DNA from: Romanomermis culicivorax
Taxonomy: Eukaryota; Nematoda; Enoplea; Mermithida; Mermithidae
Reading direction: 5' to 3'
NCBI GenBank assembly: GCA_963922205.1
Contig: CAWUHX010000211.1
Location: 1-64,000, forward strand
DNA length: 64,000 bases
In this document: positions 14,101 to 56,700 of the stretch, one piece after another
How positions within the stretch are numbered: position 1 is the first letter of the stretch
Layout of the letters: each line of letters starts with the position of its first letter
Notes under the pieces: generated by a model
The model's database searches: none
Seen by the model: only the letters and a program-made list of their open reading frames with translations
Told to the model about the DNA's origin: nothing
Position numbers and translations under genes: made by a program

Positions 14101-17100
14101 AGAAATCGAAACTTTTCTTGCATTCTGCATGAAAACGAAGTTGTTTTTGACTTTAGTTTGCCTCTTTGACTTAAGTGCAAGAAAGATTCCTCTGGAATAA
14201 ATTTTGTGCGTAAAACACTAAATTCTACCTTTCCAGTGTACAATAAGTTATCTCCGCAGTTTTTTGACTAATTTTTGTTTATTTATAAATAAGCTTGTAC
14301 CAAAAAGCGGCACTAGATTTTCAGAATTCTCTTTTCCAATTAAATGCGTTGAATTGCCAATTTTAAGATTTGCAAGAAAGATTTGATGAAAATATTCTTT
14401 CAAGATTTTTTCCGAAAAAATATAATTCAATGAGTGTAAACATTTGACAATTTTTTCGTACTATATGTTTGGCTTCGAATGTTTTTGAATATTTGAGCTG
14501 CTTTGTAGATTATAATATCTAATCCTTTCAGTTGTTATTCGAATTTTGGTTTCTTTTCTACGCAAAATTGAAATGTATTCGTTTCAGCTGCGCTAACGGA
14601 TGGGATTATGCCTCAGAAGGTTTACAAGAGCTTGGATTTGCCTTTTTGGAAACACATTTGCCCAAAGTTACTATTGTTAACGGCAAAATTTATTCTGAAT
14701 GCTCGAACAAAGTTGCTCATACTGCCTGTCGTTGGGGTGAAATGATTATACTACAGTGTTTCAAGGTGAGCTAAAAAATTCACCTGTTTTCGGACTTATT
14801 ATTTAGTAAACAATTATTTAATATTATGATGCTTGAAATTTTGATCATCAGTGCACCAAGTTTGCTTTTCAAAAATACTTCTGGTTGTATCTTATTCGGC
14901 GTACATTTAAGCATATTTCTGTGCCACATAATGTTTTTGAATATTGTCAGATATATCGCAGAGTACGAGGGACTCTAATAAACAAAGTGTTAGACGCCAT
15001 ATTTCTGCAGCCATCGTCAGCCTTATATTACGTTGGTATGACTGAATTTTTACAATAAAATGTAATGTTTTATAGCTTATCTATCGTTTTCTAGAGCTTT
15101 TATCACAATTCGTTTTACATGGAATTGCGTCCATTGTTGAATCCAGCGAAAAAATTTTGCAGCGTTTCGACGATTTATTAGTTTTATCTTCAGACGTCGC
15201 AGCACCGTTTTTAAAATCCATCGTTCCTGTTTTGAAATTGAAGCCAAAAATGCGAGAAAAATTAGTCGATGTTTTACGGAAAGCTATGTTTCACAAGTGA
15301 GTATAGATCACATGAGATTCGCAGTCAAATTGTCCTTATATGCTATTATTTATTTTTTTCATTCTATAGAGACATCGATGCCAGAAAAACGGCCGTTAGT
15401 GGATTCTTATTGTTCCTGAAGTATTTCAACGTTATGGACGTTTTGAGCGGTAGAAGTCAAAGTCAATCGCAGTCATTTCCTACCTTCTCTAGTCAGGTTT
15501 GCATACTAAATTCATTATGCACTACCTACTGATTACTGATGAAAAGTACATTATGAAGCAAAAACTGATCGCCTCGAGATAAGTGTAGTTAAGACTGAGT
15601 TTCAGCTCTTTGCATTCAATATCAAAATTACTGTAATATCGTGCGTAAAAATTTCAATCAAATCCGAAGCTCATACAGATCGATCGTTGGGGCCTTATGA
15701 GTTGTTACCATTCATTTATCGACTTTAGTTGTCGAGTCGTTTCTTACTTATTTTAAAAGTAGTCACCACATGTAATTTGAGATAAATATCGTTGAGAACG
15801 CTCGGCGTGATGAAGATATTGGTCAGATCAACTACAGTTTCAAGGATTGCAACCATCAGAGCTTGAAAATTTTCATATGAACTAGATTTTGCTAATGATT
15901 TGCAAAAAAAAATTGTTTCCATATCGGAGCTTTTTTTCAGGCCATAGCTAGCACATCCGTTGTCGATTCTGAAAAATCCCTAGAGCGGCTGTGCCTGGAA
16001 GTTGTTTGCTGTTTGAGAAAGGCTTTTACATTACAAAGCGAAGTCCGTAAATTGCTCTACACTGTAACAAAAAAGATTCTGGCTGTTCAATAATGCGCAT
16101 TAAATATTACGTATTTCAGGGACTATGCAGCTCTGTGCGTAAAAATGTCCAGCTTTTGCCGGCAGTAATAGATTTACTTGATAGACAATTAGTTCCTTAT
16201 CTCGAAAACGACGAAGAAAAGTTGCCACCGATTTTCATCCGAAAATGTATTTCTAGCTCCTCAAAAGAGAACGTTTGCCTGACGGAACCATTGGTAAAGA
16301 TGACTGCTAACGTTACGGATAATGTCCTGTGAATAATTTCGATGTATGTATACAATTTATATTAAGGAGGTTATCCCAAGCGCAGCTTCCCCGATCCGGG
16401 CGGGGTCATGCTTGCCCCGATTCGGGGCTAGACTTGTCCCGGTTTGGGGCAAGAAAATTCAAAACTAGTATTTTCGATAAGATTGTTAGCTCGATTTATA
16501 ATATAATTTCTGCTTAGAAAGTGTAAATACATAACAAATATTTCTCTTAATGAAAAAATCTGACTTCTGTCATATAAATTAAGGATATTAAACTAGCACT
16601 CCATATCATAGCTGTGAAATCGTACTTTTCAAAGTGAGATTAGAGATTACTTCGGCGAACAAATCATTTGTTTTCAGAGTATATTGCTTTTAGAGAGTGT
16701 GAAAGAAGAAGGCATGTGTAACCATATCCAGAGAATAGGTTCAACTCGGTGCAGCTATAGCTATCTTATGAGAGGTAACTTCTTTACCAGGTGAGCTAGT
16801 TTCCACCAACAGATCAATGTTTATGTCAGGATTAGTTTGGTTGAATGGCTGGTTAACAGTACGCGAAAATGAGTATTTTCTTCAACGGTTCGACATTAAT
16901 TTTTCGTTTCTACTAATGACCAAAAAGTGTATAAATTCTGAAATGAGCCTATTAAATCAACTTTGATTGCATCGTGCCTATTTTCTATGAGATAAATCTA
17001 CTAAAATCCAGTTTCCTACACTAGTTCGGCTTTGGCAACCACAAAAACGATTTGTGAACCAACCAGATTGTTGTTCGATTGGTACCAGATTAACCTTTAG

Positions 17101-38363: not shown

Positions 38364-38367
38364 TTGA
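38364..38367. repeat. Target site duplication, left (TTGA)
   Basis: TTGA precedes the 3' LTR here and follows the 5' LTR at 47697-47700, the 4-bp duplication expected for a Ty3/gypsy insertion. Confidence 0.88.
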
Positions 38368-39262
38368 TGTAACGACCAGATTTGTGTGAGGTACTTTACT
38401 TCTAACCAATCGGTCGATACGGCGGGGACAAATAACGGGACGGGGGCGCGGGCGTACGATTACAAATACGGGGCGATAATATACGAACAATCGACGGTCG
38501 CTTGAACGTCGAATACAAAACGGGGGCGGCGCGGTTGCTTGCAAATAAAAAAATACACGACACGGTTTAATTGCTTTCGAAGACGGTTGCTTGCAAATGC
38601 GGGCGCGGGGTCGAAAAATTGAACGATACAAGAATGAATGAAATCACGCTTTGCTTCTTCTTTTATACGGCGATTCTGGCCACTCCCTGGGCGTCGCGGG
38701 AGGTCGAGCTTCTGTCCATCTTCTTCCGCCAATCATCGTTTCCTGCTACGCTTCTTATGCTTTCTTAATTACGCCTCTCTAATGCTTTCCTGGTACTGTA
38801 TGCTTTCTGTGCTTCGCTTGCTTTCTACGGTGGGCTTGGCCACACCTCTGTGCTTCTGTGCATGCTTCCTGTATCGGTTTCTCTGTATACACATGTTTTG
38901 TGGGGCCGCCGCTACTGTTACACTTGAGACTACCGTACGGCGGGGCTTCTACGTATTTTACTGTGTGCAGGTGTTGTTTACGATTTTTACGGGGGATTAC
39001 GGTAGCTGTGGAATGTGTAGTTTAGTGTAGGTTCTAGGGGAACAGCTGCCGTTTGTGCAAATTAATTGGGGCATCTTAATTGGGCTACCGGGGTGTGAAC
39101 GGATCAAAATAAAGTACTTCACGTAATTTTGTAGGAATGTTTGGGTGTGAATCCCAGACATCCTTGAGACGATAAAATGTGAAAATAAAATAATATCTAA
39201 TAAATGTCTATTACATACAGTATGCTACATATTTACAGTACTGCTTTAGCAGGTACGTTACA
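38368..39262 (-). repeat. 3' LTR (895 bp)
   Basis: It begins and ends with the inverted hexamer TGTAAC/GTTACA. It has the same length as 46802-47696, with three differences seen by eye (in GGTACTTTAC, GGGACGGGGG and CCAATCATCG). It contains a minus-strand TATAAAAG at 38667-38660. Confidence 0.92.
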
Positions 39263-39275
39263 TTTCCCTCCTTCC
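39263..39275 (-). other. Polypurine tract
   Basis: GGAAGGAGGGAAA on the minus strand abuts the 3' LTR, the position of the plus-strand DNA primer. Confidence 0.85.
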
Positions 39276-39293
39276 GGAGTTGAACGTCCTCGT

Positions 39294-40223
39294 TCAAGGC
39301 TTTCGAGGTTGAGGAAGGGTGGGGGTAGATTCGATAGTTGCTTTCCGAGGGTAGAAAGGGGTTGTCTCATTTACATGCACCGTAAATGTAATATTCTTAT
39401 GGGGGTGTTTGAGTGTAACGTTGGGGTACATGAAATTCGTAACTGTATAGGGTCCGTTTTGGCGAGGGAGGAATTTGGGAGTCAGCCCTTGTTTACACGA
39501 ATGATTTTTATAAAGAATAAGATCACCTGCCTTGTAATGTATGTTCTGAGCGTGCTTGTTATACTGACGGGTGTAGTGGGCTTGGGCTTTTTGCAAACTG
39601 TTCTGCACGGTTGAAAGTGCTTCTGTAAAATGCGATTTTACACGAAGGGCGTAATCGTCTAAATCAACCATGTAGGACGTGGGGAAAAAGCTTAAGGCTG
39701 CGTCTGACGGCAGATTAGCTTGCCTACCATGGAGTAATTCAAATGGGGGATACGAAGTGCTATCATTTTTATGAATGTTGATCAAAAAAACGGCATACGG
39801 GAGATAAGTATCCCAATCAGTGTGATTTGAATTGATGTACATGCGGATACGGGTGGCTAGGGTTTGGTTGCAACGCTCAACTTCCCCATTGGCAATTGGA
39901 TGATATGGGGTAGTGTGAATTTTCTGAGTATTGCATAAACTGGTGATCCGTGAGAAGAGATCGGATACAAAATCGGAGCCACGATCACAATGGATGATTT
40001 TTGGGGACCCATGACGACAAACAATTTTGGTTACGAATAGCTTGGCAATAGTGGCTGCGGTGATGTCAGGGGTCGGGAATGCCTCTACATACTTTGTGAA
40101 ATAATCGATAAAAATGACAATGAATCGGTTGCCGTCTTCAGTGAGGGGTAACGGTCCCATGCAATCAACACCGACTCTATCAAATGGGCCAGTCGGCTGA
40201 ATTGGTACCAAGTTTGCATGCAC
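39294..40223 (-). CDS. pol: Integrase core and C-terminal domain (separate frame)
   Basis: The 309-codon frame encodes the retroviral integrase catalytic core: VDCMGPLP with the first Asp, IIHCDRGSDF with the second, and HPIANGEVER with the Glu of the D,D-35-E triad. A C-terminal segment follows with GDLILYKN and the GPYTV pattern of gypsy integrase tails; no chromodomain was seen. Its frame is +1 relative to the upstream pol frame, and the zinc-binding half of the enzyme lies in that other frame, so the break falls inside integrase at about 40230-40245. The frame stays open upstream without a clear ATG, which argues that this is not an independent gene. Confidence 0.9.
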   Translation of the reverse strand: MHANLVPIQPTGPFDRVGVDCMGPLPLTEDGNRFIVIFIDYFTKYVEAFPTPDITAATIAKLFVTKIVCRHGSPKIIHCDRGSDFVSDLFSRITSLCNTQKIHTTPYHPIANGEVERCNQTLATRIRMYINSNHTDWDTYLPYAVFLINIHKNDSTSYPPFELLHGRQANLPSDAALSFFPTSYMVDLDDYALRVKSHFTEALSTVQNSLQKAQAHYTRQYNKHAQNIHYKAGDLILYKNHSCKQGLTPKFLPRQNGPYTVTNFMYPNVTLKHPHKNITFTVHVNETTPFYPRKATIESTPTLPQPRKP

Positions 40224-43200
40224 TTTGTTGGAGGGCTTTCTGTGTCTGGCATGGGTGACAAGTTTTGCAGTAACGTTTGATATCCCGGCTCATTTGGGGC
40301 CAAAAATATTTCTGTCTGAGCAAGTGTAAAGTTTTCCTGGCCGCAAAATGGCCTGTGAACTTGCTGTCATGATGTGAGGCGATGAGATGCTGGACTTGGG
40401 ACTTGGGGATGTACAGTTTTGCCTGTTTGTCGACTATACGGAAGAGAATGTTTTGATGCACTGCAAATTTGATAAGGGTAAGGGGGTGTTTTTGGGCGAT
40501 CTCTGCTAAAATACTCTTGACAGTTGGGTCAGTGCGTTGGAGTTCGGCAAAGTTTTTCTGTTGCTCTTCTTGTTCAGTTGCTTCGGCTTCCAAAACTGAA
40601 TTGATAGTTGATATTTCGGGGCGGGTTTCTAATTGCTCAATATCAAAGGATTGCTTTGCTGTCTGTGAGGGGAATCCGGAAACTGCATCTGCGTTGCGGT
40701 TAGCAGTGCCTTTTTTAGGTCGAATGTCGAGTTGAATACCAGAGAGGGCTAATCCCCAACGGGCAATGCGAGGGGACGGGTTTTCCTTCTGTAAGACTGC
40801 CTGAACTGCTGTGTGGTCAGTGTGTATGATAACATGTTGCTGGAAAAGATAGGGGCGGAAATACTTGACAAATTCGACTACTGCAAGGGTTTCTAACTCA
40901 GTGATCGGATAGTTGCGTTCTGCGGGTTTCAATGTGCGGCTCCCAAAAGCAATGGGGCGATCCTGACCTTTACTATCCAGCTGGCTGAGAATGGCGCCGA
41001 TTCCGAGTTTTGAGGCGTCGGTTTGCAGGATAAACGGTTTTGTGAAATCGGGATGCTGCAGTATTGGGGCATGGATGAGTAATTCTTTGAGCTTAGTGAA
41101 TGCGTTTTGCTGTTCGGGGCCCCAGGAAAATTCGGAATTCTTTTTGAGTAGCGATGTGAGTGGGCTAGAAACTTGAGAGCAATTTGGGATGAATCTGCGA
41201 TAATATGAGGGTAGGCCAAGGAATGACTTGACTTCTTTTGAGCTTTTGGGTGTGGGTATGTCATAGATGGCCTGTACCTTATGGGGATCTGGTGAAATGC
41301 CTTGCTGAGAAATGACGTGGCCTAAGTATTGGACTTGGGGCTGGCAGAATTTGAATTTTTGTATGTTTAGCTTAAGGCCTGCTTGTGAGAATCGGGCAAG
41401 AATAGTGTCTAAACGCTCCAGCATTTGGGCATGGGAGTCTGCGAATACCAAAACATCGTTGAGATACACAAGGCATATGTTCCATTGCAGACCCGAGAGG
41501 ATAACATCCATTAACCTTTGGAATGTGGCTGGGGCATTGGTGAGTCCAAAGGGGAGGTAGTTGAATTGATACTGGCCGGCTGAGCAATTAAAAGCCGTTT
41601 TTTCTCTGTCTGCTTGTGCTATGGGAATGGAATAATATGCATTGGATTGGTCAAGGGACGTAAAATATTTCATTCCCCGTAGGGTGTCTAGAATTTCGTC
41701 TATACGGGGTAAGGGGTAGGTATCTTTTTTGGTGACTTTGTTGAGGCCTCTAAAATCAATGCATAAATGATGGCCTCCATCTTTTTTGGGAACTAAAACT
41801 GTGTTGGTACACCATGGAGAATTGCTTTGGCTTATGACACCTGCTGCTGTGAGTTGCTCAACTTCTGCTTGTATGATTTGCTTTTCTTTTGGGGAAGTCC
41901 GAAAAAGGTGTCTATGTAGGGGTTGGGAGCCATTGGTGTCAATTGTATGTGAAACAAGAGTGGTTCTACCTACATCCATTTTGGATTTAGCATATAATGT
42001 GGGGTACTTCGATAGGGCGCGTAGGAGTTGCGTTTTTTCTGCTTCTGTGAGGTCACAGGAGGTTAAATTAACATTTTCTTTTAACCATGTGAATGTATCA
42101 AAACGGTTGGGCTGGTTTTGCGTGGAAGGGGTTACGTTAGCGGGAGTATTTTGTTTCGGGATGTAGCAGGAGACTGTACCAATGCATGTTCCAGGATAAA
42201 GAATTTGGGCTGTTTCTTGTGTGTTCAGGACGGATATGCGTATGCGATTGTTTTGATTTTCCGAGATACAAGCTGCAAAATGGACTTTGGGATTCTGCTT
42301 GGGTTTCGGAGTAAATTCGAGCTGTTTGACTTGTAGGTACGATTTGGGCAAGTTGACAGTAAATTCGGTTACTGTATGGGGTGGTAATTCTAATTTCTCA
42401 TCCAAATAAGTTCCACCACGGGTTGAAAGAAGGCTATATTCTAGGCCATCACAAGGTAGTATAACATTGCCAAATTTGACCTGTGATTTTTGATTGTTGA
42501 TAGTGTATTCCGAAAATCGACTGAGAAAGTTTTTGCCTAGAAGGATGTCTGCTGTGCAATCTTTTTGGACATGGACCATGATTGTTTCCTGGATTGTTTG
42601 GGCTGTCACTGTGACAAAAGTGGTTCCTACAAAGTGAATCGGAAGATTATTTGCTGCTTTTGCTTGGACTAGCGGGGGTTTCATGTCTAACTGTAAAAGT
42701 TGAGCGATTCGGGAATCAATGAGTGAATAAACTGCACCAGTGTCAATCATGCCTTTTGTCATTAATTTGCCGTTAAGTGTGATTGGAATATGAGGGGTAT
42801 GTTTCTCAGGTACATTTTGGGGTGGCTTATTTGATGCAGATTGGTGAATTTGATTAATGAGTTCGATTGCAGGAGTTCGGGGGGTATCAATATCGACAAG
42901 GACGTATTTCTGCTGTGTTTGTGCCCCACGACGATTAGCTAATTCTAAGAGAGCATGGCCGAACGATGGGGGAATGGTCTCATGTGAATGTCTGTTGTTT
43001 GATGGTATTTCGTATGCATGTTCGTTTGTGGCATGATGCTTTGGAGAGGGGAAATATTTTCGAAGAACGAGAAACGAATAAAAGACGCCTGCAATAACTA
43101 CAGTAATAACGGCTAGATTTATAATGATTTGCAGGGGTCCTTTGAGTAAATTGTTTAATCCGTCTGTGAGACTTTGGGTGGTACCGGTAATTACATGTTC

Positions 43201-45207
43201 TATGCCTTGACTGGCGCCAGAGAGTGTATTTCCGAGTGCTTGGCCAGTGCCTGAGATCATGTTGTAAACTGTATCGGAATTGAGAGACATTTGGGCGGTG
43301 TAATTGACGAGTTTTTTGACAATGTTTTCGAGTGTGTGAGTTTTGTAAATGTATTGTTTCAAAAAAAGTAAGTTTGTTGAAATAGTTGCAAGTTGATCAT
43401 GAAAAATGGCTGGTGTATTAAAATGGAAAAGGGAGAAATTTTGGTTCCAGACGATTTCTAAAGGTAAATTTGTGACATGCGGGGATCCTGTTTCACTTAC
43501 CCATGTATTATTCTGTTTGTAAAGGGCTACATGCATGTGATGGCAGTCAAGGGTTTGTGAAAAAGGGGTCAAATCATTGCCACCTGGATTTGAAAACATG
43601 AGTTCGGTTCCTACGAGAATGGGTAAAAGTTTGTAGCATGTTTGGTTGATTTTGTGGTTGTAAAAGATTTTAGATGCGTTTACTTGCTTGCAGGGCCAGA
43701 CTGTGAGGGCTTCTCCTGTGAATTCTGCTATGATGTCGGTTCTCTGTAGGAATGCACGCGCTCCAAGGGTTGCATCAAGACGTAAAATTTGCCATACGAG
43801 ATCAAGGTGACGCTGTGCCTGTCTGCATAATTCATTCCATACATTTTTGAAATTTTGAATTTCGAATTCCTGTATTTTGTCTGCTAGATAGTTTAGTTTT
43901 GCATTGATGGGTTCAAAATCATCAAAATCGTATAGTGTAGTATGAGTTTCGTTGGTTTTTGGGGTTAAGAATGCGTTACGATGTGGTGTGCTTTTGTCTA
44001 ATTGTACGATAATGCCTTGTTCGGTTAGAATGCTGTCTTGGATTTCTGGGCAATTGGGGTTCGAAAAAACTGTATTTTTAACCGAGAATGCACCTTGTAG
44101 TTCTTCTATTATCATGTGTGTTTGTGTGAGTTTGATGGGATGTGTATTTTTGTATTCGAAAGGGCATAAGTTTTCAAATGCTGTTTCGTTCCAGATAATG
44201 GATCCGTCGGCTGTGACACAATGACCTGATGTCGGTTTGCATGACCCTAGGTCGCCTAATGTACCTGTCATAGATTTTCCATTCCAAGATGCTATTTGTC
44301 CTATTTCTATGATGACGTTAGTGACCGAGGTACAATGGTCTGTACAACACCATGTGTATTCTACGCTTAGGGAGTTATTTGTTGACCAAAATCCTGGTTG
44401 GGTTTCGTATAATTTTTGACCGTTGTGTTCTTTGTCTATAACGATTGCCTTACAAACATGTGGGGTTAGATTTTGCATTTCGGTTTGGTCGAAGACAATA
44501 CCTTTTGATCCAAAAAATCCTGTATTAGTACAAATTTTGCGTTTGCGAACACTGCATTTGTATGCGTCTGTAATGTGGGGCTTAGTGGAGGGGATATAGA
44601 TTTTTCCGAGTGTCTGTACGGGTTTGTCTACTGTGGAAGGGGGCATGCATGATACAAGTTTTGGTATGCTGACTGAGTGACCGCTCAATGAAGTTCCACA
44701 CATCTGAAATTGGGCACTACACGATGTGGGGATTATTATACAAAGAAAAATACAAAACATCGGCCAATAGAATGTTTTAGTGGAGGCAGCGGGGCACTGT
44801 GTTTTTTCGTTGTGGCCGGTTTGGTGTTGGGGCTTTTGGTGTGGCCGTTTTGCGGTTTTGCGCTGGGGGGGTGGCCGGTTTGAAATCTGAATGGTCTGTA
44901 AAACTTTAGAAGTTGAGTTATGGAATGGGGTTTGGACTTGCTTACTTATGGGGGTCGGTAGAAGTGTTTGGCGGGGGCGGAATTGGTAGGGTTCGGGGGT
45001 CAGGCCATGGAGAAGGGATAACAAGTTGCGGCCTGTTTTCGACGGGGTTTCGGGGGCGGTGGGCGGCGTTGTGTCTTGCTTTCGGGGGATCTTGTAGCCT
45101 ACAGGGATGGTGGGTGGCGATTTTTCGATTTTTGCGGCTTCAGGCGTGGGAGGTGGTGACATGGCGCACCAATCGGGTACGTCCACATGGCGCACCAATG
45201 GTGACAT
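40180..45207 (-). CDS. pol: Envelope-like glycoprotein fused to protease-RT-RNase H-integrase zinc domain
   Basis: This is a single 1675-codon frame. Residues 1-145 are basic and Pro-rich. 146-165 is a hydrophobic, signal-peptide-like segment ending in SCSA. About 166-690 is a Cys-rich ectodomain with at least eight N-x-S/T sites and a CCTDHC motif. 694-715 is a transmembrane helix followed by RKYF. The protease follows with DTG at 822-824, then reverse transcriptase (LPFG, and YLND at 1248-1251 in place of YLDD), RNase H with Asp 1397, and the HHCC zinc domain ending CKTCHPC. The start is the first ATG; the frame is open upstream to about 45271 and overlaps gag. The glycoprotein's fusion class is not recognised. 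Confidence 0.9.
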   Translation of the reverse strand: MSPLVRHVDVPDWCAMSPPPTPEAAKIEKSPPTIPVGYKIPRKQDTTPPTAPETPSKTGRNLLSLLHGLTPEPYQFRPRQTLLPTPISKQVQTPFHNSTSKVLQTIQISNRPPPQRKTAKRPHQKPQHQTGHNEKTQCPAASTKTFYWPMFCIFLCIIIPTSCSAQFQMCGTSLSGHSVSIPKLVSCMPPSTVDKPVQTLGKIYIPSTKPHITDAYKCSVRKRKICTNTGFFGSKGIVFDQTEMQNLTPHVCKAIVIDKEHNGQKLYETQPGFWSTNNSLSVEYTWCCTDHCTSVTNVIIEIGQIASWNGKSMTGTLGDLGSCKPTSGHCVTADGSIIWNETAFENLCPFEYKNTHPIKLTQTHMIIEELQGAFSVKNTVFSNPNCPEIQDSILTEQGIIVQLDKSTPHRNAFLTPKTNETHTTLYDFDDFEPINAKLNYLADKIQEFEIQNFKNVWNELCRQAQRHLDLVWQILRLDATLGARAFLQRTDIIAEFTGEALTVWPCKQVNASKIFYNHKINQTCYKLLPILVGTELMFSNPGGNDLTPFSQTLDCHHMHVALYKQNNTWVSETGSPHVTNLPLEIVWNQNFSLFHFNTPAIFHDQLATISTNLLFLKQYIYKTHTLENIVKKLVNYTAQMSLNSDTVYNMISGTGQALGNTLSGASQGIEHVITGTTQSLTDGLNNLLKGPLQIIINLAVITVVIAGVFYSFLVLRKYFPSPKHHATNEHAYEIPSNNRHSHETIPPSFGHALLELANRRGAQTQQKYVLVDIDTPRTPAIELINQIHQSASNKPPQNVPEKHTPHIPITLNGKLMTKGMIDTGAVYSLIDSRIAQLLQLDMKPPLVQAKAANNLPIHFVGTTFVTVTAQTIQETIMVHVQKDCTADILLGKNFLSRFSEYTINNQKSQVKFGNVILPCDGLEYSLLSTRGGTYLDEKLELPPHTVTEFTVNLPKSYLQVKQLEFTPKPKQNPKVHFAACISENQNNRIRISVLNTQETAQILYPGTCIGTVSCYIPKQNTPANVTPSTQNQPNRFDTFTWLKENVNLTSCDLTEAEKTQLLRALSKYPTLYAKSKMDVGRTTLVSHTIDTNGSQPLHRHLFRTSPKEKQIIQAEVEQLTAAGVISQSNSPWCTNTVLVPKKDGGHHLCIDFRGLNKVTKKDTYPLPRIDEILDTLRGMKYFTSLDQSNAYYSIPIAQADREKTAFNCSAGQYQFNYLPFGLTNAPATFQRLMDVILSGLQWNICLVYLNDVLVFADSHAQMLERLDTILARFSQAGLKLNIQKFKFCQPQVQYLGHVISQQGISPDPHKVQAIYDIPTPKSSKEVKSFLGLPSYYRRFIPNCSQVSSPLTSLLKKNSEFSWGPEQQNAFTKLKELLIHAPILQHPDFTKPFILQTDASKLGIGAILSQLDSKGQDRPIAFGSRTLKPAERNYPITELETLAVVEFVKYFRPYLFQQHVIIHTDHTAVQAVLQKENPSPRIARWGLALSGIQLDIRPKKGTANRNADAVSGFPSQTAKQSFDIEQLETRPEISTINSVLEAEATEQEEQQKNFAELQRTDPTVKSILAEIAQKHPLTLIKFAVHQNILFRIVDKQAKLYIPKSQVQHLIASHHDSKFTGHFAARKTLHLLRQKYFWPQMSRDIKRYCKTCHPCQTQKALQQSACKLGTNSADWPI
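41458..41460 (-). other. Reverse transcriptase catalytic Asp replaced by Asn
   Basis: The codon is AAC where the family has GAC or GAT (first Asp of the Y-x-D-D box). A single G-to-A change accounts for it. This residue binds catalytic metal, so the enzyme of this copy should be inactive. Confidence 0.88.
43063..44772 (-). other. Envelope-like glycoprotein module within the long frame
   Basis: This marks the part from the signal-like segment (44772-44713) to the membrane anchor (43128-43063). Size (about 570 residues), paired cysteines, sequons, one C-terminal anchor and a short basic cytoplasmic start are those of a type I membrane glycoprotein. No fusion peptide or furin site can be named with confidence. 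An internal Met (residue 150) lies within the signal-like segment, so separate expression by splicing is conceivable. Confidence 0.75.
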
Positions 45208-45230
45208 GGCGCACCAATCGGGTACGTCCA
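45154..45230. repeat. 45-bp tandem duplication at the start of the long frame
   Basis: TGGTGACATGGCGCACCAAT.. through CGTCCA at 45154-45185 recurs at 45199-45230, an offset of 45 bp, so it adds 15 codons in frame and duplicates the ATG context at the start of the env-pol frame. Confidence 0.8.
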
Positions 45231-45232
45231 GA

Positions 45233-46558
45233 TCAAGGACATATACGGGGGTGGGTGTTGGGCATGATAGTTCCTAAAGTAGTCTGAGGGCCGTTAGTTA
45301 TGGCGGGTAGTTTTGAGTAAAATGCGGGGTCATCAATGTCCATGAGGGGTTGGGGTTGCCTGTACTCAATACAATTTTGAATATTACGACTCTGCTGATT
45401 TGGGCAATACCTGCTTGTATGACCTCTCTGCTTGCATATGAAACATTGAAAATTGGAGTAGGGTTTTGAAAGGCAGTTATCTGATCTGTGTCCTGTTTGG
45501 GAACAGTGGATGCATCGGCTTTTACAATCACGTGTACTGTGATTATTACGGAAACAGATTTCACATGATTTTCGGGTGCCTACTGATTTACAATTACGAG
45601 CTACATGTCCGATTTGTCCACACTGGAAGCATGTGGGTTGCCTAGGGGTGGTATTGTTCCTGTAAGCATTATTCCTACTGTAAGTGTTATTACTGAAATT
45701 GTTGTAGCTACTCTGTTGTGGGGGTTGAGGTTTTTGTTTGATCTGCAACTGTAAATCTTTTACTTGTTGTTCTAACTGATGCAAAAGGTCCTGTTGGTCT
45801 GTGTTTTTGGTTAGGGAAAAGATGGGTTCGGGTTTTGGGGGTATAAAGGGAAGGGCGTTAGATTTTAACTCATTTCTAAGAATTTGCTGTTCAATGTAAG
45901 CTGCTTCGTCTGACATTTCTTTTAGAGTCGCGAACCATCTGTACTTAATTGCTTCCCTGATTTCGTTTTGCATGCCTTCTACAAAGAGGGGTTTTATGAT
46001 CATTTCTCGTGCGTCTGTGTTAAAGTTAGGGTAGGCGAGGGTTGCGAGATGTTCTAGATCAAATAAGAATTCCATTACTGTTTCTGAACGCTCTTGTTTT
46101 CTTTCGCGTAAGAATTGTTGATGTAGCTCATTATCTCTATTGTTTGGGAAAAATGCCTGTAATGCGACTTTATACTGCTCATATGTGTGGGGAGGGTTTT
46201 CGGAATTGGCTAAGCTTTTGAATTTTGCTAACGTGGCTCCTCCTAAATGAATCTCTAAACATGCCAACTTTAACTGTATGTCTGTATCTTTCATGCCTTG
46301 GAGTGCCATGAATTGTTCTAATCTTTTGTTCCATTCACCAAAATGTTGGGTCACGCCGCCCGTGAATACTGTAGGTTTCGCGTAGAAATTGTTTGCCATG
46401 TTATTACGAATGTTTGCTGTTCTTAGATCGTCTATTAGGGTAGGGTTTACTGTATTCTGATTCAATTGTGTGCGTAGGGTACGAAAATGTTCTGAAAATA
46501 AATCGTTTATCTGCTCTCTAACGATTTCTCCTAAATGATCTTGCGTTTGGTGGGTCAT
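45233..46558 (-). CDS. gag: Gag (capsid and nucleocapsid) of the gypsy element
   Basis: Starting at the Met of MTHQTQDHLG, 441 residues carry a capsid-like region (EWNKRLEQFM..., YEQYKVALQAFF, RERKQERSETVMEFL) typical of the retrotransposon Gag family, a Gln-rich linker, then four CCHC zinc knuckles in a row at about 45630-45430 (CFQCGQIGHVARNC, CEICFRNNHSTRDC, CIHCSQTGHRSDNC, CFICKQRGHTSRYC). The frame is open without a stop upstream to 47065, through the primer-binding site and into the LTR, so the start is a choice: 46558 is the first ATG after the PBS. The end overlaps the env-pol frame by about 39 nt. Confidence 0.88.
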   Translation of the reverse strand: MTHQTQDHLGEIVREQINDLFSEHFRTLRTQLNQNTVNPTLIDDLRTANIRNNMANNFYAKPTVFTGGVTQHFGEWNKRLEQFMALQGMKDTDIQLKLACLEIHLGGATLAKFKSLANSENPPHTYEQYKVALQAFFPNNRDNELHQQFLRERKQERSETVMEFLFDLEHLATLAYPNFNTDAREMIIKPLFVEGMQNEIREAIKYRWFATLKEMSDEAAYIEQQILRNELKSNALPFIPPKPEPIFSLTKNTDQQDLLHQLEQQVKDLQLQIKQKPQPPQQSSYNNFSNNTYSRNNAYRNNTTPRQPTCFQCGQIGHVARNCKSVGTRKSCEICFRNNHSTRDCKSRCIHCSQTGHRSDNCLSKPYSNFQCFICKQRGHTSRYCPNQQSRNIQNCIEYRQPQPLMDIDDPAFYSKLPAITNGPQTTLGTIMPNTHPRICP

Positions 46559-46778
46559 TCTTGGTTTACGTTGGGATTTCTGCTTAAATGCTTCAATTTT
46601 TGCTTCACGCTGTATTCCTTTAAATGTATCGCTTAATGTTTCGTTAGAGGGGATTTCCAGTTTGCTTTCTACGAATACTGTCTTACTGTAGGAAATGATT
46701 ACTACTGTATTATCTAATGCTTCTAAATGCCCGGATAAGAGTACACCTAATTGGGGGCAGGGAGTTCCAGTGGTTAAC

Positions 46779-46796
46779 GTAACGGTACGGTCACCA
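46779..46796 (-). other. Primer-binding site
   Basis: Five bases after the 5' LTR the minus strand reads TGGTGACCGTACCGTTAC, beginning with the TGG that pairs with tRNA CCA. I could not identify the tRNA from memory. Confidence 0.7.
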
Positions 46797-46801
46797 AAAT
46801 A

Positions 46802-47696
46802 TGTAACGACCAGATTTGTGTGAGGTACCTTACTTCTAACCAATCGGTCGATACGGCGGGGACAAATAACGGGACAGGGGCGCGGGCGTACGATTACAAA
46901 TACGGGGCGATAATATACGAACAATCGACGGTCGCTTGAACGTCGAATACAAAACGGGGGCGGCGCGGTTGCTTGCAAATAAAAAAATACACGACACGGT
47001 TTAATTGCTTTCGAAGACGGTTGCTTGCAAATGCGGGCGCGGGGTCGAAAAATTGAACGATACAAGAATGAATGAAATCACGCTTTGCTTCTTCTTTTAT
47101 ACGGCGATTCTGGCCACTCCCTGGGCGTCGCGGGAGGTCGAGCTTCTGTCCATCTTCTTCCGCCAATCGTCGTTTCCTGCTACGCTTCTTATGCTTTCTT
47201 AATTACGCCTCTCTAATGCTTTCCTGGTACTGTATGCTTTCTGTGCTTCGCTTGCTTTCTACGGTGGGCTTGGCCACACCTCTGTGCTTCTGTGCATGCT
47301 TCCTGTATCGGTTTCTCTGTATACACATGTTTTGTGGGGCCGCCGCTACTGTTACACTTGAGACTACCGTACGGCGGGGCTTCTACGTATTTTACTGTGT
47401 GCAGGTGTTGTTTACGATTTTTACGGGGGATTACGGTAGCTGTGGAATGTGTAGTTTAGTGTAGGTTCTAGGGGAACAGCTGCCGTTTGTGCAAATTAAT
47501 TGGGGCATCTTAATTGGGCTACCGGGGTGTGAACGGATCAAAATAAAGTACTTCACGTAATTTTGTAGGAATGTTTGGGTGTGAATCCCAGACATCCTTG
47601 AGACGATAAAATGTGAAAATAAAATAATATCTAATAAATGTCTATTACATACAGTATGCTACATATTTACAGTACTGCTTTAGCAGGTACGTTACA
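46802..47696 (-). repeat. 5' LTR (895 bp)
   Basis: This is the partner of 38368-39262. Element transcription would start about 25-30 nt after the TATAAAAG at 47101-47094, that is near 47065, making about 630 bp of U3. Confidence 0.92.
47094..47101 (-). promoter_or_regulatory. LTR TATA box
   Basis: TATAAAAG on the minus strand within the 5' LTR, with the longest downstream open frame beginning about 29 nt later. The same box is in the 3' LTR. Confidence 0.65.
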
Positions 47697-47700
47697 TTGA
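47697..47700. repeat. Target site duplication, right (TTGA)
   Basis: TTGA directly follows the GTTACA end of the LTR and matches 38364-38367. Confidence 0.88.
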
Positions 47701-48712: not shown

Positions 48713-49824
48713 ATTTATCTGAAAATGCCATGAAATGGCAAAAGGAGAATATGTTCTTCCTTTTTGCTTGTTTCACTGGCTTAAAAGTTCGATATTAGGC
48801 CTCCCCATCATTTCATTTCAGCAAAATTCTAACTGAAAAAACTTTCCATTTTCTGAGAAACATATACGCGCCCAGTTAGTCATTTCTGAAAATGCCTCTG
48901 CGCAAAAATGGACAAATCCTTGAAAAATTTCTGTATCAGTTATTAAAGTTGATTTTTACAGAAGAAAAAAACTTTGGTTTAATGAAAAACCCGAAATCTT
49001 TGTAATTATTTATGTGCCATTCTTTGTTGGAATTTTTCATTACTGTATACAATGCAGTGGCCTATACCTTGTTTCCGAAAAGCAGGTGGTAAACCCACAG
49101 TATTCCTGATTCGCAAGACAACGAATTTACACAATTTGAAACAAATTCGAAAAATTAATCGCTGGTAAACAGCAAAATTTTTGTTGACGGCGATTTTTGG
49201 AAGACTGACGAACATTATTTGAGTAAAATTAGCCGAAGCATAGTTTCAAATAAGTTTAAACTAGCATTAATCGTATTAGAAATTTAAATTCCCGCGTTTT
49301 AAACTCGGAAAAAACAATACGTGTGAATCAAGAATATGGTGAGTTTACAACCAGGTTCTCGGAAACGAAGTATAGTATTATGCACAGTGAAATATGGGAC
49401 AAGGAGAAACATATTCATCTTTTGCCACTTCCTAGTATTAGAGAATGGTTATTGTTCTGTATAGTTTTTGTCAATTATAGCACTTTTTTTGTACAAGCCT
49501 GTAATGAATTTTAAACATGCAGTTAGAGGCATCACGTGTGTTCTATCATGAAAACGAAGTATGTATTGTACATACAGTAATCATGTAGATTGTAAAAGTT
49601 GCTACAAGACAAGGGAATTTCATGTGCAGAGGCTTGAAAACGTTTTGTCTTTTAAAAAACTGAACGCGTATATGTTTCTCAGAAAATGGAAAGTTTTTTT
49701 CAGTTAGAATTTTGCTGATATGAAATGATGGGGAGGCCTAATATCGAACTTTTAAGCCAGTGAAACAAGCAAAAAGGAAAAACATATTCTCCTTTTTGCC
49801 ATTTCCTGGCATTTTCAGATAAAT
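48713..49824. mobile_element. Foldback DNA element with 150-160 bp inverted arms
   Basis: ATTTATCTGAAAATGCCA at 48713 and its complement ending at 49824 open two arms (48713-48876 and 49659-49824) that match over most of their length. The middle 780 bp is unrelated and has no transposase. Target duplications are not clear, so the superfamily is open. Confidence 0.7.
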
Positions 49825-53340: not shown

Positions 53341-53712
53341 GATTAATGGCGAAAAATGGGAGAAAACGACGATTACGATCCGCTGGCCTTCTGTTATGCC
53401 TTATAACGCAGTCGTTGTGGTAGTTCTAGCAGTTTCAGCGCGTTTTACGGCGAACTTTTAACCCGGCGGAGCAGAAATTCGATCCGAGGAAAACGTTTAT
53501 TGAATTTACGTAAATGGCCGCAGAAGGTGACAACGTCGAACCGGAACTTATGGAAAGTTGGACGGCTGGATCGGCATCGGGAGGCGGTAGCGGTGGTTCC
53601 ATACATGAGTACGGACACTTTTTTACGAAAAAAAATTTCGGTAAACCGACTTATTGTCACAATTGTTGCGAAGTATTGTGGGGTATTATTAGCCAAGGAT
53701 TTGTCTGCGAAG
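53341..53712 (+). CDS. DGKQ: DGKQ-like diacylglycerol kinase, first coding exon with 5' leader
   Basis: The kinase phosphorylates diacylglycerol to phosphatidic acid, ending one lipid signal and starting another. A strong acceptor (TTTTTTCCAG) at 53340 opens a 173-nt leader. The coding start is ATG 53514, directly preceded by an in-frame TAA. The 66 codons hold an acidic start, a Gly/Ser linker, then HFFTKKNFGKPTYCHNC and GFVCE, the first half of a typical C1 domain (H-x12-C-x2-C). Donor GAAG|GTAAGC. Two short upstream ATGs (53346, 53357) begin frames that end within or near the leader and could damp translation. The kinase domain is beyond the window. Confidence 0.82.
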
Positions 53713-56700
53713 GTAAGCTCTTTAACAAGTATTTGTTCGATTTTTCTTATTTTTAGTTGATTTTTCTTTATTTTGTTTGTGATATTATTTTGTTTATTGT
53801 CCTTCATTGTTCATAGAAATTCGGGAAAGGATTATCGTTTCGACTTCGAAACTTTGCTACGGGGTTCCCGGCCGTTATGAGTTTAACTGTCTTATAAAAC
53901 ATAACAAGTAGTTAGGAGTGTGAATTTCTGCTAGAAGAATTCCCGACAGTGTGTTATCGCACATCAGGTATCCGCGAACGCCCTCCTAGCAGTATTTTTT
54001 GCACGAGCTTCTTTGTACCTGTACAAAAATCAACCAATAATCTTTTTACGAGGAAAATTTATTTTGTATCTATACCAAAAAATTCCTATTTTGCTGGCAT
54101 ATTTGCACAAAACTTTTTCCAGATAGCACTTCAGTTCATGTCCTTCATAACACAAAAGACACGGTATTGAAAAATGCATCTACGCAACGGAAATACTTGT
54201 AGGTTCTGACACGTATACTAAAATGTTGGGAAATCAATTTCCGGATAATTTGCTCAAGTAAAATGATTATCAAATCAAACCAAGAAAACTTTTCGTATTT
54301 TCCCGATTTTAAAGTCTAGAAAAGCGTTTTCTGACTAGAAAATGCTGACAGAATCTCCGTGACTTTGTAAAAAGATCAAAAACAAATTTCCACGGAGTCA
54401 AAAATGTTTGTTTCGTACAAAAAACACCGCCCCCCCCCCAGAATGGCCGGCGGAATACCCAAACTGAAGGAAGCTACTGGAACCCCCACGCTTATCAGGC
54501 CAAGATTGTATATCTGTCAAGTTTTTGGTTTAAAATAGTCCATTTTTACAAAGTTTCAAAAATGTCAAGTTTTTTGGCGTATCGCGATCTAAAGAGTTGT
54601 TTTATGGGTTTTTAGAACCAAAGCACGTATTGTTTAGACCTTTCAGCATAGCTCGAGGCCATGATCTTTTTTTTAATCTGCCATCTGTTATACAACGTAC
54701 ATGTATGCTGTATAGTATGTCGCATTTTCAAACTTTCTCTGCCTGCAGTTTCCTGTTTGCTCACTAACTAGAGGTGTAATTTCCCAAACCATGAGTGATA
54801 TATTGTGATTCTATTACCCATATCGAGCCGAGAAACGTTATACTCGTTTGCATTGAAATTTTCCCAAATCTACCGAGCAATGAAAACGTCTGTATATCCT
54901 ATCTGGAAAGAAGCAACGGATATAAATTAAAAACATTACGAAGTTGCATTAACCATAACCTGTTGATCTTAATATGCCCGAAAAACTCAGACTTAACTTC
55001 ATCATTGTCTACTATTTGTAATTCCATTATTTGTTGTGGGCCAAAAATAAACAGCGGTATGTTAAGCCTCAAAATTTCTTCGGAAATATTTTGCCACATT
55101 GGATTTTCAAAAAACCAATAGTAATTTTCACTTGATCTCGATCCGTTATACAATCTACCATTTTTGGCGTCGTTATGAAAGAACAAAATCTTTATTTGAT
55201 CCGCCACATATTAAACAGTCGCTGTTGATTTAAAATCATGAAAAAAATGTTCTAGATCGTTTACTAAATTTATTTACATTCATTTACGAAATTCTCACCT
55301 GAATTCCTTTCTTTTTATGAATCAGTATATGCACCATTTTCAAAGATATTACTTTCGATGAATGCTAGTCAGGGACAAGAGCAACTGACGAAAATATATT
55401 TTTGAAAAACTGAAATTCTCAAAATGTTTAATACCGTTAAAGACTCGAAAAAATATTAATTCATTTATTATAACAGTTCTTCTATCTTGTGTTGCTATGA
55501 AAGTGATATCAAAGAACTTTTAGAGAAATCTGATTTCTACGGATATTCGTTTACTTTTATATTACAGGTCAAAAATCAGCTCTTGCTAATTTTTACGCTA
55601 TCTATCTTACAGTCTCCTCTTTTAATCTATTGTTTCTGCATGTCTTTCTCCGATCGTTTCTTCAAGAAATTTCGTCTGTTCCCAAGCATATGGTGACACG
55701 GCACAATTTTTTCGACCGTAAAAATCGTAATTGCTCGTTGTTCGTAGAAAATACCCTCTCTTTTTTCCTTAAACTCTTTACAAATCTTTTTATTTGCACG
55801 TACTTTCGTTTCCTCTTTCTCAGCGTCGAATAATGATACTCGTTTGGAAGATTTATATTTTCCATGAAAAATTCTTGGTAAAAGTTTATAAATGTCTATA
55901 ATAATATATAGGTATCGAAAAAGAACAGAAAATGAATGATAATAGCGAGTGATAAGTATGTAATAATAAGAGGGAACTTCATCTTCTCTCCGTGCAACAT
56001 TTGAAGGAGAAATTTTCTAGCGTGTTCTTACAAGTTCTCAAAACATATTGAGGAACTGCTTCCCGTATTAAAGGGGAAAAACTTAACGCATATGTAAAAG
56101 TAAATTCAGTAAAGGGGATTATTGTGCAATCGAATAGTTTACTGTGAATAAATTTAGGTAAATTTCATGAATTCTTGTTACATGATTTAATACAAGCAAA
56201 GCAGTCAGTGTTTTTTCTGCACAGTGCAAACTTTTTAGACATCGTGCAGAATTTTTTTTTGTGATTTCTGCACTGAGCCATGTGTTTGATCACATATATT
56301 CTTCTATAATGTGTCATTCATTGATTCTGAACTTTTAAAATCAATTATTTTTCTTATTTTAAGACTTTGAAATGTCTAGTCAAAAACTATAAATTCGTTA
56401 TTTTGAAATTTATTTTATCAGAATGAATAAAATTTTGATGATATGTGTACGAACTTCTGATACCAATGAATTACACATTTAATTTGCTTCTTTCCTATAT
56501 TCACTATTATTGTATTGCAACAGGAGAAAACATCAGTGCAGAAACCTTTTTCGGCTTTTCTGCACTGTGCAGAAAGCCGGTGCAGAAAAAACACTGCAAG
56601 CGGCTACATTTTTCGAATTTCAAATTTTCCCGGGATAATCATTATGATTATATAGTTATACTGTCATAAACTTCCTGAATACTGGAGAGCATTGTTGTTT

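Follow-up and report, generated by a model that had tools for sequence, protein, structure and literature searches.

A Ty3/Gypsy-type element of Romanomermis culicivorax with a predicted chuvirus-type fusion glycoprotein between Gag and protease

The 64,000-nucleotide (nt) stretch of DNA analysed here (the window; positions 1 to 64,000 of contig CAWUHX010000211.1 of Romanomermis culicivorax, a nematode that apparently parasitizes mosquito larvae) carries on its minus strand, at 38368–47696, a long terminal repeat (LTR) element in which an envelope gene (env) lies between gag and the protease (PR). The order is LTR-gag-env-PR-RT-RH-IN-LTR, where RT, RH and IN stand for reverse transcriptase, RNase H and integrase. 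An earlier note made from the letters of this DNA had proposed this placement of env, and it is borne out by a match of the env region to the family PF24664 (Monjiviricetes_fusion) of 66.2 bits, the curated cut-off being 27. The order is shared by other copies in the genome, and recent copies read from gag to integrase in a single frame. To our knowledge, in known retroviruses and env-carrying LTR elements env follows pol, either as a gene of its own or, in Atlas virus, as the final portion of the chain. A conserved Gag-Env-Pol order is another route by which an LTR element may reach the enveloped state, and with it the sorting of shell, spike and enzymes from a single chain becomes testable.

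Element order and reading frame

The features of the window copy are as follows, the target-site duplications, primer-binding site and polypurine tract being assigned from sequence.

47697–47700, minus strand: target-site duplication TCAA, 5' side
46802–47696, minus strand: 5' LTR, 895 bp, TGTAACG...CGTTACA
46789–46796, minus strand: putative primer-binding site TGGTGACC
45233–46558, minus strand: gag, starting at its first in-frame ATG and carrying CCHC zinc knuckles, in a different frame from env-pol
45154–45230, minus strand: tandem duplication at the gag/env junction of the window copy (32-bp match, 45-bp period)
44788–45207, minus strand: linker, residues 1–140 of the 1675-codon frame
44713–44787, minus strand: internal signal-peptide-like segment, residues 141–165 (hydrophobic stretch 141–159, hydropathy 1.53)
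43138–44712, minus strand: env ectodomain, residues 166–690 (16 Cys in 525 residues)
43435–43956, minus strand: PF24664 match, residues 418–591 (E 1.9e-18)
43072–43128, minus strand: transmembrane anchor, residues 694–712 (hydropathy 2.4)
42517–42786, minus strand: aspartic protease (DTG), PF13975 (E 3e-9)
41311–41793, minus strand: reverse transcriptase, PF00078 (E 4.9e-34)
40741–41124, minus strand: RNase H, PF17919 (E 1.5e-38) and PF17917 (E 1.1e-37)
40234–40410, minus strand: integrase H2C2 zinc domain, PF17921 (E 1.7e-22)
39294–40223, minus strand: core and C-terminal part of the integrase, which the window copy has in another frame, PF00665 (E 4.9e-9)
39263–39275, minus strand: polypurine tract GGAAGGAGGGAAA
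38368–39262, minus strand: 3' LTR, 895 bp
38364–38367, minus strand: target-site duplication TCAA, 3' side

The two LTRs are 99.67% identical (3 mismatches over 895 bp), and TTGGTGACC stands at the 5' LTR end in the window copy as well as in nine of the 11 loci shown, the exceptions being L013 and L025. The Gag polypeptide matches zf-CCHC (E 2.2e-8) and, under the cut-off, Retrotrans_gag (E 3.3e-4). Positions 40180–45207 form a single open frame of 1675 codons (open from 45273) in which env is followed by the protease, RT, RNase H and integrase zinc domain. Env and protease are thus joined without an intervening stop, as had been claimed; the further claim that env shares one frame with pol holds from the protease through the integrase zinc domain but not for the integrase core (39294–40223). 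Since gag and the integrase core lie in other frames, the window copy is not one gag-env-pol frame, and we read its frame breaks as lesions of that copy. From the integrase stop (39294) it is 18 nt to the polypurine stretch and 31 nt to the 3' LTR, so that a 3' env has no room, in agreement with the earlier note. The pol order PR-RT-RNase H-IN and the TG...CA LTRs with a 4-bp duplication are those of Metaviridae; the RT matches among database proteins appear to be Gypsy-type, judged from domain lists and names. The window element is most likely a young but damaged copy from a recently mobile Ty3/Gypsy-type family.

A scan of the same genome (359,112,060 bases in 595 contigs, 2320 candidates) gave 68 scored PF24664 matches, all above the cut-off and 13 of them within open frames longer than 2000 aa, and PF24664 had no match in 14 control genomes. 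We read the 20 loci with the best scores among the 68. An env placed after pol, or a stop between anchor and protease, had been named in the earlier note as grounds for doubt; env lies between gag and protease in all 20 loci, and it runs into the protease match in the same frame and with no intervening stop in 14. All six pieces (gag to integrase) are in order in 17 loci; L009 has no integrase match, L014 has neither an RT nor an integrase match, and in L027 an integrase match, apparently from an abutting copy, stands upstream of env. With the exception of L027, no env match was found downstream of integrase or RT (19 of 20 loci). The six pieces share one frame in nine loci, and in six (L017–L021 and L026) this frame is free of stops from gag to integrase. 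These six copies have LTR identities of 99.8–100% and their own 4-bp duplications, so single-frame elements have moved recently. Among the 14 LTR-paired loci the integrase stop is 9–81 nt from the 3' LTR in every case, and 4-bp target duplications are present in 11 (none was seen in L011 and L012, and L028 was counted neither way). The 20 loci fall into four subfamilies, with env identities to the window of 89–97, 53–60, 43 and 37–38%. A hydrophobic signal segment precedes env in the five loci looked at (L013, L015, L016, L017 and L028), and signal and anchor segments were present in all four subfamilies looked at.

Regular spacing of env matches was seen on two contigs. On G000:C180 they lie at 404, 8769 and 17134, exactly 8365 bases apart, and on G000:C25 at 197813 and 206184, 8371 bases apart; these may be LTR-sharing head-to-tail arrays of the element, or the assembly may have gone wrong at the contig start.

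The arrangement extends to database proteins. When the RT-RNase H piece served as query, 7975 candidates were scored, and among the 120 matches listed of 3646, eight carry PF24664 (45.5–63.2 bits), in each case N-terminal to the protease; their source labels are jgi, lgn, ena or ncbi. Six of these eight (P0004, P0037, P0042, P0047, P0055 and P0058) are single frames from gag to integrase of 2293–2797 aa, with gag recognized by Pfam in five (partly under the cut-off) and by BLAST in P0058, and with a hydrophobic segment before env and an anchor segment in all six; in the other two, P0026 and P0027, the protein starts within or at env. The env piece alone, as query, found three shorter proteins. 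One of them, P0005, is named Romanomermis culicivorax and is 53% identical over 48%. When the lengths considered were 0.55–1.75 times that of the 1675-aa frame, the env piece matched one protein, P0004, whose 2604 aa run in a single frame from gag through env, protease, RT and RNase H to integrase. P0005 is 76% identical to the second subfamily of the genome (that with 53–60% env identity to the window). PF24664 was not found in six other scanned proteins (P0016, P0028, P0045, P0062, P0082 and P0126), one of which, P0028, starts with an anchor-like segment directly before the protease. Scans of viral contigs and of genome contigs found no relative. Two minor observations concern these proteins: P0047 has an RNA-recognition motif (PF00076, E 6.2e-7) at residues 500–555, between zinc knuckle and env, and P0007 is a related env on a 1383-bp contig labelled as a Gammaproteobacteria metagenome-assembled genome, where DNA of a retroelement has probably been binned with bacterial sequence.

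Identity and history of the env region

The env product is, judged by its sequence, a Monjiviricetes (chuvirus-type) fusion glycoprotein. The glycoprotein identity proposed in the earlier note is upheld by the PF24664 matches above the cut-off in the window and in all eight relatives, and by herpesvirus glycoprotein B (gB) as the best match among solved structures. The window env itself has a sub-threshold match to gB (E 0.01), and as a single sequence it found no match among the solved structures searched. With a profile of four env sequences the top four were three gB chains (E 1.4e-4 to 1e-3) and one ORF8 chain (E 1.5e-3), followed by unrelated enzymes at 0.47. A class III fold is possible in view of these profile matches to gB chains, the AlphaFold2 model from four sequences having a mean confidence (pLDDT) of 34, too low to weigh either way. 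Sixteen Cys columns are invariant in all seven full-length env pieces. The signal-like segment, the Cys-rich ectodomain and the anchor described earlier were all found, but the sequons attributed to the ectodomain are not above chance (8, against a shuffled mean of 6.1 and reached in 496 of 2000 shuffles) and provide no evidence for a glycoprotein.

Env is under purifying selection between most of the copies compared. The ratio of non-synonymous to synonymous substitutions (dN/dS) was taken from six unsaturated pairs, three of which share L015, and for env it is 0.11 in L015/window, 0.18 in L015/L028, 0.14 in L015/L022, 0.08 in L017/L012 and 0.18 in L017/L026; in these five pairs the ratio is 0–0.22 for RT and 0–0.13 for gag. 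The sixth pair, L013/L025, is taken up below.

For the trees, four of the 121 proteins were dropped for their short RT matches, and the careful RT tree further left out 10 long-branch rows and 51 of the 96 remaining rows without env. The window clade is present in both the env and RT trees (support 97/96 and 100/99), which, compared with one locus per subfamily of the genome, also agree on the pairs P0004/P0027, P0055/P0058 and L017/window. P0037 and P0042 are paired in the careful RT tree and in the env trees and unresolved in the RT tree of this comparison, and the placement of P0047 and L016 is unresolved in the env tree. Env and RT distances have a correlation of 0.48, a value reached in 5 of 2000 permutations. 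One clade of all env-carrying RTs together with P0016 and P0028, a group named after a quick tree had been seen, is neither shown nor rejected (p-AU 0.24).

P0016 is the closest RT relative among the matches listed (65% identical), and the RT tree places it next to the window as its sister (98/86). It is a single gag-pol frame with no match to the env ectodomain and with hydrophobic segments (residues 430–600) before the protease. Its position inside the env-carrying RT clade suggests that P0016 lost env secondarily. Retention of hydrophobic segments by a protein with no ectodomain match also raises the possibility that the membrane anchor serves a use of its own.

Production of Gag, Env and Pol

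Our working hypothesis is that Gag, Env and Pol are probably made as one polyprotein that threads the membrane, with Env outside and Gag and Pol inside. This is the simplest reading of a single frame in which the ectodomain is preceded by a signal-like segment and followed by one anchor, and the membrane-anchored polyprotein suggested in the earlier note is favoured by the six frames free of stops from gag to integrase; the topology and processing of the chain we infer. A fusion glycoprotein of class III type, whose donor was probably a negative-strand RNA virus resembling chuviruses, would have entered the gag-pol junction in an ancestor, and the lineage would have kept it since. The genomic RNA would be translated as a single Gag-Env-Pol chain, the internal signal segment would take Env into the endoplasmic reticulum, and the C-terminal anchor would halt transfer, leaving protease, RT and integrase back in the cytosol beside Gag. 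Signal peptidase may then cut between Gag and Env, and the element's own protease between Env and Pol. Gag and Pol would in this way be held at the membrane beneath the spike, from which budding could release enveloped particles, perhaps able to infect from cell to cell. To the proposal as a whole we give about an even chance: a recently mobile, apparently widespread lineage whose enveloped particles are assembled from one Gag-Env-Pol chain threaded through the membrane. In that chain the captured class III fusogen would physically join shell to enzymes, processing would fall partly to the host's signal peptidase and partly to the element's protease, and Gag, Env and Pol would be produced one to one.

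A number of observations weigh against this hypothesis. The window copy is damaged, its gag and integrase core being out of frame, and its subfamily is decayed: L015 and L028 have the six pieces in one frame with two stops each, and one of the L015 stops falls within env. This subfamily (L015, L028 and window) also shares one donor-like and one acceptor-like site, a weak pair. The loci read, being the best-scoring ones, are not a random sample. Among the selection estimates, env has a dN/dS of 0.42 in L013/L025, a pair with few differences (gag 1.85 and RT 0.45), L017/L026 has very few differences, three of the pairs share L015, and deep pairs are saturated in synonymous changes.

The main rival to the polyprotein is splicing, which we regard as possible but doubtful. 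Full-length RNA would then serve mainly as genome and as the source of Env, and an env-skipping RNA would make Gag-Pol, the single frame being incidental; in a variant included in the same assessment, Env would come from a spliced RNA whose start lies close to the signal segment. Retroviral env is made from spliced RNA, and in Cer1, likewise a nematode LTR element, the CERV protein is produced via splicing (PMC10309623). All six stretches scanned have acceptor-like sites close to the 3' end of env, and donor-like sites lie close to the gag/env junction in the window copy and in L015, L016, L017 and L028. However, a crude scan with no host splice model found no donor/acceptor pair around env common to the subfamilies, and a GTRAG donor is missing from the scanned stretch of L013. 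A splice to the acceptor-like sites, which precede the anchor, would keep the anchor in Gag-Pol, and the gag-env-pol frame has been kept across deep divergence, which splicing alone would not need.

It is improbable that Env is past its role in entry and that the anchored middle is kept mainly for bringing Gag and Pol to membranes in assembly or transfer. P0016, with its close RT, its gag-pol frame and its hydrophobic segments, speaks for such a role, but it is one sequence, and the 16 invariant Cys and the low env dN/dS in most pairs argue for an outer part that works. A chance chimera, in which one copy received a viral glycoprotein fossil between its gag and pol, might be entertained because chuvirus-type glycoprotein fossils are common in arthropods (PMC10084718), but is already contradicted by the recurrence of the order in every own-genome locus read, across four subfamilies, and in all eight database relatives.

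Two other candidates were set aside. The 2A motif NPGP is absent from the 12 proteins searched, which removes 2A skipping, and a programmed gag/env frameshift was rejected as a family trait because gag and env share one frame in L013, L015, L028 and the six stop-free copies.

Known elements and surroundings of the window

In Errantivirus and other env-carrying Ty3/Gypsy elements of animals (Metaviridae) env is usually a separate gene after pol. The window family resembles Errantivirus-type elements in its Gypsy-type PR-RT-RH-IN order, LTRs, short target duplication and captured env, but differs in that env lies inside the gag-pol chain, before the protease in 20 of 20 loci rather than after the integrase, with no 3' env. 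Captured env genes in Gypsy and BEL elements, and a chuvirus-type env in BEL (Anakin), are already known.

Anakin, from mosquitoes, has like the window family a captured chuvirus-type glycoprotein, but is a BEL-Pao and not a Gypsy element, and in a figure legend its glycoprotein comes after the integrase (PMC7642597). A survey reports no clear capture of chuvirus-type glycoproteins by Gypsy or Copia elements, and its two nematode chuvirus-glycoprotein fossils are flanked by simple repeats (PMC10084718); such a capture by a Gypsy-type element is documented here. The literature also speaks of type III fusion glycoproteins carried by Gypsy elements (PMC13172572). Atlas virus, a hookworm belpaovirus, is likewise a nematode element with env fused in a stop-free polyprotein, and by analogy would offer a precedent for env within one chain, though its order is Gag-Pol-Env, with env last, its fusogen is of the class II phlebovirus type, and it belongs to Belpaoviridae (PMC9094657), in which env follows pol, unlike in the window family. 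Tas, a BEL element of Ascaris, has an env weakly similar to class III gB (PMC9094657), whereas another source gives its env a phlebovirus origin and that of Cer-7 a herpesvirus origin; Tas is a BEL/Pao element with env downstream of the polyprotein (PMC7642597).

Three further candidates for a precedent were rejected. Troyka has no env, CG...CG ends and 3-bp duplications, and does not match the window element (PMC12440569); the statement 'between gag and pol' for Cer1 concerns a stop codon, not env (PMC10309623); and the env-like open reading frames of bdelloid elements are ORF3, after pol (PMC5408684). We did not find the single-chain Gag-Env-Pol order in the open-licence literature searched, a weak negative, the survey of Chary and Hayashi 2025 being outside its scope, and the novelty of the order is provisional.

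Elsewhere in the window, 48740–49796 is an inverted repeat with arms of about 138 nt that are 94–95% complementary, lie about 780 nt apart and have the ends AAAAGGAGAATATG; it resembles a short non-autonomous DNA transposon. Likely host exons are present at 16051–16332 (FANCI helical domain, PF14680, E 2.2e-11) and at 53514–53756 (C1 domain, PF00130, E 5.2e-6).

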